IMG/VR virus record: IMGVR_UViG_3300022562_000769
Span: 1-34,178 of that record
Reading direction: 5' to 3' (one strand)
Source of the DNA: a virus
DNA: 34,178 nt
This document shows, piece by piece, positions 30,663 through 33,296 of the stretch (the first letter of the stretch is position 1; each line of letters opens with the position of its first letter). The translations under genes and the position numbers were made by a program. The notes below the pieces were generated by a model, which was not told the origin of the DNA, ran no database searches, and worked only from the letters and a program-made list of their open reading frames with translations.

Positions 30663-30691
30663 TTGGATTTTACCTTTAAAAATGGTATAAT
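30663..30691 (+). promoter_or_regulatory. Promoter of the first structured RNA
   Basis: TTGGAT at 30663-30668, 17 bases, and TATAAT at 30686-30691 preceded by TGG. A start near 30698 falls at the beginning of the structured region and no coding frame follows for more than 150 bases. Confidence 0.7.
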
Positions 30692-30697
30692 AGTATA

Positions 30698-30844
30698 AAA
30701 GCAACTATGGTAATGAGGTTGCAAACTAGAAGCTCTGTCAGCACTAACTTCTAGGTAAAAGTGCCAGCTTATCTGGAGTGCTGTGCCACCCAGCTTAGTG
30801 GGAAAGGGCGTCAGCTCTAAGTTACCAATCCCTATGTTGGGTGG
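30698..30844 (+). ncRNA. Putative structured non-coding RNA
   Basis: This gene-free stretch of about 150 bases follows a strong promoter and is unlike its AT-rich surroundings. It holds GCAAC/GTTGC (30701-30705 with 30718-30722) and CTAGAAG/CTTCTAG (30726-30732 with 30748-30754). It also holds CCAG/CTGG (30764-30767 with 30773-30776) and CCACCCA/TGGGTGG (30786-30792 with 30838-30844). The loop of the first hairpin (TGGTAAT, 30708-30714) can pair with GTTACCA (30821-30827), suggesting a pseudoknot. It matches no riboswitch or RNA class that can be recognised by eye. The 3' end overlaps a second promoter. Confidence 0.55.
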
Positions 30845-30850
30845 TATAAT
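30822..30850 (+). promoter_or_regulatory. Promoter overlapping the 3' end of the structured RNA
   Basis: TTACCA at 30822-30827, 17 bases, and TATAAT at 30845-30850 preceded by TGG. It would serve the genes from 30865 onward, with a start near 30857. Confidence 0.6.
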
Positions 30851-31707: not shown

Positions 31708-31740
31708 AAAAAGCCACCTCTAAAGGTGGTTTTCTCGTCT
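31708..31740. terminator. Bidirectional terminator
   Basis: CCACCT (31714-31719) pairs with AGGTGG (31724-31729) around CTAA, extended by A/T pairs, with TTTTC downstream and GAAAAA upstream. It ends the lysis transcript on the + strand and can end the minus-strand zinc-ribbon transcript from the other side. Confidence 0.75.
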
Positions 31741-31810: not shown

Positions 31811-32017
31811 CTAAGGTACTATGGGAGTTGAGGTACGGACTCGTAAGAAATGTGCTTCATGTGGTAATATTGTAAACATCTCATTAGCTTTTTCTATTTT
31901 CATTGAACACTCTCTGCAGATCTCTCTATAAAAGAACTTCGGGAAAAACTTAGTCTTTTCACACACCATGCAGGTTCTTATCGGGAGGTCATCATTTTCT
32001 AATATTATTTCATTCAT
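31811..32017 (-). CDS. Minus-strand zinc-ribbon protein, leaderless
   Basis: A 68-residue protein, the only convincing minus-strand gene. It has CMVC (near 16-19) and CREC (near 34-37) flanking KTKFFPKFFYREI, the pattern of a small zinc ribbon. The start at 32017 is chosen because a perfect minus promoter (TATAAT at 32029-32024) ends six bases before this ATG, predicting a leaderless mRNA; an in-frame ATG at 32065 lies upstream of that promoter. A DNA-binding regulator of the opposing transcripts is a fair guess, not shown. Confidence 0.65.
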   Translation of the reverse strand: MNEIILENDDLPIRTCMVCEKTKFFPKFFYREICRECSMKIEKANEMFTILPHEAHFLRVRTSTPIVP

Positions 32018-32023
32018 ATATAG

Positions 32024-32052
32024 ATTATAGCATTTTATAAAAACACTTGCAA
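32024..32052 (-). promoter_or_regulatory. Minus-strand promoter sharing its -35 with a plus promoter
   Basis: Read on the minus strand: TTGCAA (32052-32047), 17 bases, TATAAT (32029-32024) preceded by TGC. TTGCAA is its own reverse complement, so the same six bases are the -35 of the plus promoter. The predicted start coincides with the ATG at 32017. Confidence 0.75.
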
Positions 32053-32075
32053 TAATTTTGTCCACATGCTATAAT
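32047..32075 (+). promoter_or_regulatory. Plus-strand promoter for a small RNA, shared -35
   Basis: TTGCAA (32047-32052), 17 bases, TATAAT (32070-32075) preceded by TGC. Start expected near 32082. A terminator ends at about 32145, so the product would be near 65 bases with no substantial coding frame. Confidence 0.75.
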
Positions 32076-32081
32076 GTATTT

Positions 32082-32145
32082 AGCATACACCTCCCCCCGA
32101 AGGTCATGCTACCCCTTAGCCCACTATAATGGTGGGCTTTTTCTT
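32082..32145 (+). ncRNA. Putative small RNA with a CCUCC-bearing hairpin
   Basis: Between promoter and terminator lie about 64 bases. The first hairpin is AGCAT (32082-32086) with ATGCT (32106-32110) plus ACCT (32089-32092) with AGGT (32101-32104), leaving a CCCCCCGA loop. The strand reads CCTCCCCCC from 32090, the anti-Shine-Dalgarno core CCUCC within it. The second hairpin is the terminator. Only a seven-codon frame (ATG at 32106) is possible. C-rich loops of this sort are known in bacterial sRNAs that bind ribosome-binding sites. Confidence 0.55.
32118..32145 (+). terminator. Rho-independent terminator of the small RNA
   Basis: AGCCCAC (32118-32124) pairs with GTGGGCT (32132-32138) around TATAATG, followed by TTTTTCTTTT. 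Strong, GC-rich stem with T-tract. Confidence 0.85.
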
Positions 32146-32160
32146 TTGTGTATAACTTTC

Positions 32161-32188
32161 TTGAAAGATTTATTGTGGGTGGTATAAT
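32161..32188 (+). promoter_or_regulatory. Promoter giving a leaderless transcript
   Basis: TTGAAA at 32161-32166, 16 bases, TATAAT at 32183-32188 preceded by TGG. Six bases separate it from the ATG at 32195, which is where transcription should begin. The same six-base gap is seen for the minus-strand gene at 32017. Confidence 0.7.
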
Positions 32189-32194
32189 TAGTGT

Positions 32195-32560
32195 ATGTCT
32201 TGGGAGTGTAAAAAATCAGATAATAAATTACACCAGTTCCTCTACAATGGAGCTAATTGTTCCTTTTGTGGTATCTCACAATACGATTTAAATAAGAGAG
32301 AAAAGCCTATTGCAAAATCTCTTGGAAAGAGTTATAATAAACCAGAGGTAAATGCAAAGAGTAAACGAGGCGTATTATTCCAAGACTTAGTTAAATTCTT
32401 CGGGATAACAAACAAACAAAAATTCTTCTATCAGACTATCAGATACTCAAATGACGAGATAGATTATGCCATGAGCGTGATAAAAGACAGATTAAATAGA
32501 GGAGAATTAAAAGGAAATCCTACGGGATACTTTCTGGGGATATTAAAAAATTTAAAGTAG
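32195..32560 (+). CDS. Hypothetical protein with a CxxC finger, leaderless
   Basis: A 121-residue protein. The N-terminus has an HQFLYNGANCSFCGISQYDL stretch with one CxxC and a nearby His and Cys that might complete a zinc site. A basic linker follows (about 30-60) and then a helical C-terminal domain (LVKFFGITNKQKFFYQTIRY, DEIDYAMSVIKDRLNRG) that could bind nucleic acid. No family is recognised. Its ATG lies at the predicted transcription start. Confidence 0.65.
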   Translation: MSWECKKSDNKLHQFLYNGANCSFCGISQYDLNKREKPIAKSLGKSYNKPEVNAKSKRGVLFQDLVKFFGITNKQKFFYQTIRYSNDEIDYAMSVIKDRLNRGELKGNPTGYFLGILKNLK

Positions 32561-32923: not shown

Positions 32924-32952
32924 TTGCAAAAGAAATAAATATTTGATATAAT
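32924..32952 (+). promoter_or_regulatory. Promoter before the 35-codon gene and second structured RNA
   Basis: TTGCAA at 32924-32929, 17 bases, TATAAT at 32947-32952 preceded by TGA. Start near 32959, leaving a leader of about 17 bases before ATG 32976. Confidence 0.75.
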
Positions 32953-33083: not shown

Positions 33084-33107
33084 TTAGATGCCTTTTTGTT
33101 TTGTTTT
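33072..33107 (+). terminator. Terminator overlapping the end of the 35-codon frame
   Basis: AGGCGTCT (33072-33079) pairs with AGATGCCT (33086-33093), one G-T pair, six-base loop holding the TAA stop, then TTTTTGTTTTGTTTT. A structured RNA region starts at its end. Confidence 0.8.
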
Positions 33108-33285
33108 AAAACAGGAATATGAGAGTGGCGGACTGTGAGCCGTAGAGAAAAATCGGTAAGATGTAACCCCGTGACCCAAAGTGTACATACTGGGAAACTC
33201 GCAACAGTATTTATTAGCCAGGAGTAATTATCTGGTATCCATAAATAGGCTGTAAGTCAAACCTTACCTCTCGTATTCCTGTTTT
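33108..33285 (+). ncRNA. Putative large structured RNA closed by an 18-bp stem
   Basis: AAAACAGGAATATGAGAG (33108-33125) pairs along its whole length with CTCTCGTATTCCTGTTTT (33268-33285), one G-T pair. Inside, CAG-TATTTAT-CCAG pairs with CTGG-ATAAATA-CTG to form a long hairpin (about 33205-33252). GGTAAG (33155-33160) can pair with the CTTACC at 33263-33268, and CCC..AGT with ACT..GGG (about 33175-33194). No coding frame is present and the base composition is less AT-rich than around it. A known RNA class cannot be named by eye; a small non-autonomous mobile element with inverted ends is the alternative. Confidence 0.6.
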
Positions 33286-33296
33286 AGATTATTAAC

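Follow-up and report, generated by a model that had tools for sequence, protein, structure and literature searches.

Bidirectional promoters have only recently been recognised as a class, which so far is defined by a common -10 element. The available part of the report by Warman, Grainger and colleagues (PMC12825309) describes such promoters in E. coli and other prokaryotes as pseudo-symmetric DNA that RNA polymerase can bind in either orientation, with transcription starts typically 10, 18 or 23 bp apart and a divergent, often protein-coding output. Binding one way excludes binding the other way. According to the same part of that report, competition at basal activity was seen in none of the five E. 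coli bidirectional promoters tested and appeared only after activation, and interference led to lower noise. Overlapping divergent promoters, of which only one is usable at a time, are also known from Pc/Pr of pLS20 (PMC4207663), where Pc has a 17-bp spacer and an extended -10, and where the switch requires unequal promoters, the autoregulating RcoLS20 protein and DNA looping.

Here we analysed a locus in a 34-kb virus record (34,178 nucleotides, analysed as a whole and referred to as the window). It belongs to a tailed phage with recognisable terminase, capsid and M23 peptidase. Positions 32024-32075 read ATTATA-N17-TTGCAA-N17-TATAAT, with spacers of 17 on either arm (Table 1). Because TTGCAA is the sole palindromic hexamer starting with TTG, sequence logic dictates that a shared -35 with the consensus TTG must be TTGCAA. 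This hexamer agrees with the -35 consensus at four of six positions, and the extended -10 makes up for the shortfall. The extended -10 boxes, one on each strand, read TGCTATAAT, and each -10 region is an exact inverted copy of the other over 10 bp (ATTATAGCAT / ATGCTATAAT). The elements of a sigma70-type extended -10 promoter (TGnTATAAT, a spacer of 17 ± 1 and a -35 starting with TTG) were found in both directions. The first-pass annotation had described a palindromic TTGCAA with a perfect TATAAT and TGC 17 bases to each side, lying between a minus-strand zinc-ribbon gene and a plus-strand small RNA. The sequence bears out this geometry, and an ORF and a hairpin with terminator were found on the respective strands. 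Either arm resembles a complete transcription unit with a terminator at its end.

Table 1. Features of the phage locus (window coordinates) and recurrent gene pairs at matching sites elsewhere.
Feature	Coordinates	Strand	Remarks
Bidirectional terminator	31714..31729	.	CCACC stem and T-tract; 3' of the minus-strand gene; can also serve the upstream plus-strand lysozyme-like gene
Zinc-ribbon ORF	31811..32017	-	68 aa, CxxC..CxxC; ATG at 32017; from sequence reading
Minus-strand -10, TATAAT	32024..32029	-	extended by TGC at 32032-32030
Shared -35 hexamer, TTGCAA	32047..32052	.	own reverse complement
Plus-strand -10, TATAAT	32070..32075	+	extended by TGC at 32067-32069
Predicted ~58-nt RNA	32081..32138	+	UAGCAU/AUGCUA outer stem, ACCU/AGGU inner stem, CCCCCCGA loop, terminator
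Intrinsic terminator	32118..32138	+	AGCCCACTATAATGGTGGGCT, then TTTTTC
Separate promoter of next plus-strand gene (ORF 32195-32560)	32161..32188	+	TTGAAA-16-TATAAT
proA/smpB			11 loci
nth/exonuclease			12 loci
mtnA			3 loci
mnmE/mnmG			2 loci
SRP RNA / DnaB-like helicase	L050:7168-7489, L061:7683-8000		divergent, one symmetric TTGCAA promoter

The spacing of these elements was compared with dinucleotide shuffles of the window. TTGCAA-N17-TATAAT was observed 6 times, against 0.07 expected, and the other spacings from 8 to 27 yielded one case, at 14. TATAAT alone was not enriched (62 against 56 expected), and the signal is therefore the spacing. TTGCAA stands at 20 sites in the window; five have TATAAT at 17, only the one at 32047 has it on both sides, and the symmetric arrangement was absent from 300 shuffles of the window. 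TG-extended -10s in the window are biased towards the coding strand (13 against 2). TTGCAA with an extended -10 was present in all eight genomes checked, against a single control match across all eight. The further plus-strand TTGCAA-17-TATAAT sites in the window lie at 2140, 18668, 32310 and 32924, three of the four within coding genes; the site at 32924 also has TAAAAT on the opposite strand, at 18 bp.

Leftward, the minus-strand -10 is followed by CTATAT and the ATG. The expected start, 7 nt past the -10, falls on the A of this ATG, and the zinc-ribbon mRNA is therefore predicted to be leaderless. Shine-Dalgarno sequences are absent from nearly all listed phage genes, the exceptions including 28421 (AAGGAGG, with a complementary CCTCCTT before it) and 27853. 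Searches with the zinc-ribbon ORF found no confident family and no homologues in phages; the sole match, L002, was rejected as lying antisense to a longer ORF. No known regulator domain was found in the product, though its zinc ribbon may nevertheless contact nucleic acid. Its identity to the zinc ribbons of three HNH proteins was 19-22%, with alignment at the four cysteines only, and kinship with these is therefore not claimed. A short plus-strand ORF with its own CxxC motif (31821-31931, MGVEVRTRKKCASCG...) runs antisense to the gene, possibly by chance.

Rightward, the predicted ~58-nt RNA folds with -22.2 kcal/mol (z = -4.25). C-rich-loop regulatory RNAs of the RsaE / csRNA type, from Gram-positive bacteria, are short and consist of hairpins and an intrinsic terminator. 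The ~58-nt RNA is like them in its length, hairpins, C-rich loop and terminator. Unlike them, it matched no Rfam family at or above the gathering threshold of the covariance models, and its best duplexes with targets in the phage were no better than those of shuffled RNA; the likeness is one of resemblance only. Our most likely guess is that it is a C-rich-loop antisense regulator. An exact scan of viral contigs with its 16-base core, made for homologues, returned unrelated sites only. Pairing with the whole zinc-ribbon mRNA, which 22 of 500 shuffles equalled or bettered, was set aside as an unconvincing, terminator-like GGUGG/CCACC match. Mimicry of the anti-Shine-Dalgarno by its ACCUCC was likewise rejected: Shine-Dalgarno sequences are scarce in the phage, but no target evidence was found.

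The next plus-strand gene has its ATG 6 nt past the -10 of its separate promoter and is predicted to be leaderless as well; no homologue of it was found. Two other stretches of the plus strand drew attention. Positions 33104-33290 form a strongly folding, RNA-like element of ~187 nt with a closing stem of ~21 bp (AAAACAGGAAUAUGAGAG / CUCUCGUAUUCCUGUUUU; z -5.0), and positions 30692-30850, between extended -10 promoters at 30686 and 30845, are possibly a structured non-coding stretch (z -2.5). Neither matched an Rfam family at threshold.

The occurrence of the arrangement elsewhere was examined with the pattern ATTATANCA-N14-TTGCAA-N14-TGNTATAAT, which has 22 fixed bases. In a scan of the viral collection, it matched 17 other contigs, and controls with 14-bp spacers (14/14) or with the core TTCGAA, an anagram of TTGCAA with equal composition, gave 0 matches each. 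These counts bear on the idea that one side alone is a working promoter and the other a fortuitous symmetry. Promoter-like matches in AT-rich DNA are often due to chance, and promoter scans returned about as many as shuffles did; yet the symmetric pattern recurs against zero in two controls, and both sides have a perfect extended -10, a spacer of exactly 17 bp and a unit closed by a terminator, which makes a one-sided promoter quite unlikely.

One scan of cellular genomes (257 Gb) revealed the pattern in 72 contigs, mostly of Clostridia, with a few Patescibacteria, namely Yanofskybacteria, three Saccharibacteria and one Gracilibacteria. Chance was gauged here by a composition bound, which gives fewer than 2 matches if all genomes had the most favourable composition (18% GC); the spacer and core controls cover the viral collection. 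The pattern is also present in genomes of up to 68% GC. Clustering by flanking protein grouped the 89 sites into 45 independent clusters, 32 of them singletons. Searches for close relatives of the phage itself found none, and clues to its host were slight, as the terminase relatives are distant and unassigned, and a search for the UDP-GlcNAc epimerase-like protein within the phylum to which L053 belongs did not discriminate.

The recurrent gene pairs (Table 1) were named from a reading of the translations. Cellular examples, including proA/smpB, nth/exonuclease, mnmE/mnmG and dnaB/SRP RNA, are constitutive or housekeeping pairs. Among loci of one gene pair the spacers vary and the elements are kept, with a mean majority identity of 0.61-0.64 in the two large groups; only the spacer variation is informative, because the loci were chosen by pattern match. 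In L050 and L061, the 5' end of the SRP RNA (Rfam) lies 6 nt past one -10, and the DnaB-like gene reads the opposite way. In L096, a tRNA-Ser gene starts 8 nt beyond one -10. These three loci provide a direct precedent for the pairing of an RNA gene with a protein gene on one common -35, and the positions of their RNA 5' ends agree with the start sites expected from the model. The recurrence, the zero control matches, the housekeeping pairs and the RNA genes 6-8 bases past a -10 together support real two-way promoters with one common -35. Seven related contigs (L019, L021, L026 and L031-L034) have an HNH_3 protein on one side of the symmetric promoter and, on the other, a repeat-rich, possibly non-coding stretch with recurring GTACTTGTACTTAT.

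At ten loci (L018, L020, L022, L025, L027, L028, L029, L030, L035 and L057), one side is occupied by an RHH-type gene of 50-60 aa, a call made by sequence reading and confirmed in both of the two cases to which Pfam was applied. The opposite side encodes an HNH, TnpB-type or LAGLIDADG protein, representing three nuclease families, in at least nine of the ten. Seven of these calls were made by Pfam (L028 slightly below the family cut-off), and those for L029 and L035 by similarity to L022; L020 has a short unclassified ORF in this position. The divergent pair looks like a recurrent module of a regulator and a selfish nuclease.

This association raises the question of whether the promoter is also an operator, at which a dimeric regulator of phage or host origin would recognise the symmetric site and govern transcription both ways. 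RHH proteins may act so at the ten RHH/nuclease loci, where this kind of promoter lies between the RHH-type gene and a second, divergent gene, which encodes a mobile nuclease at nine or more of them. In the window, the perfect inverted repeat of 10 bp that takes in the -10 boxes would fit an operator. However, an RHH gene is absent beside the site, and the repeat needs no further explanation, since its length is that of the promoter elements plus one base at most. We regard an operator at this site as improbable.

The predicted start sites, ~32082 on the plus strand and ~32017 on the minus strand, lie ~65 bp apart, so that polymerase footprints would overlap and two polymerases probably could not occupy the site simultaneously. 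From the shared -35 the first-pass annotation had deduced a switch built into the site, bistable or mutually exclusive. In such a switch, firing in one direction would lock out the other and two cell states would result. The footprint overlap fits such a switch, and overlapping divergent promoters do act in that of pLS20, together with the regulator RcoLS20. The exclusion, however, would be transient, lasting only while one polymerase occupies the promoter. A Gillespie model, made for illustration and run on assumed rates, compared exclusive occupancy without feedback with independent promoters. The exclusive promoters gave unimodal outputs, with bimodality coefficients of 0.33-0.50 (usual threshold, 0.555) and correlations between the proteins from -0.09 to +0.04, much like independent promoters. 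No feedback regulator or operator was found at the site, and pairing of the ~58-nt RNA with the zinc-ribbon mRNA start was not significant, 178 of 500 shuffles being equal or better. The published bidirectional promoters, in the available part of their description, do not compete at basal activity. Constitutive housekeeping pairs use the same geometry, which makes bistability unlikely as its purpose. Two divergent sigma70-type promoters with a common -35 thus survive from the earlier proposal, whereas its switch is unsupported, and we consider it very improbable. Common elements, tempting as that reading is, need not mean bistability.

The site is best explained, with a probability of roughly three in four, as a compact and probably constitutive bidirectional promoter, with a common -35 and two extended -10s, used by the host sigma70-type polymerase with weak interference. 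Since dozens of unrelated loci in bacteria and phages carry the same design, and housekeeping genes often flank it, an economical promoter for both directions seems a better description than a bistable switch. The host housekeeping RNA polymerase would read the palindromic TTGCAA as a -35 both ways, and the direction would be set by the extended -10 box on either strand. Leftward transcription would yield the leaderless zinc-ribbon mRNA, ending at the terminator at 31714-31729, and rightward transcription the terminated ~58-nt RNA. With polymerase bound in one orientation at a time, each initiation would briefly block the opposite direction, and the output would be shared, roughly balanced and weakly interfering, with no stable choice.

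Together with 45 independent loci elsewhere, the window site suggests that two-way transcription has a second solution, built on a common -35 and recognisable from sequence alone. An earlier description of the shared -35 design was sought, and literature searches of partial coverage yielded nothing relevant. We tentatively propose, at slightly less than even odds, that these sites form a distinct class of bidirectional promoter that has evolved repeatedly, with a common TTGCAA -35 serving two outputs with their own extended -10s in Clostridia, Patescibacteria and phages. The outputs so tied would be housekeeping pairs, an RNA and a protein gene, or the selfish nuclease of a mobile element and an RHH regulator. 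The pairs proA/smpB, nth/exonuclease, dnaB/SRP RNA and RHH/nuclease offer testable cases of polymerase competition.

Compared with the known systems, the window site is like pLS20 Pc/Pr in having overlapping divergent promoters that would be usable one at a time, and shares the 17-bp spacer and extended -10 of Pc. pLS20 favours an arrangement of -10 over -35, with unequal promoters and looping RcoLS20, none of which was found here. With the promoters of PMC12825309, as far as the available part of that report describes them, it shares the near-symmetric DNA, the predicted binding of polymerase in either orientation, each to the exclusion of the other, and the divergent output. Their starts lie close together on opposite strands, flanking or inside a common -10; here, 40 bp separates the two TATAAT boxes, the predicted starts are ~65 bp apart and the common element is the -35. 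The site is thus a variant of the known bidirectional promoter, with a common -35 instead of a common -10.
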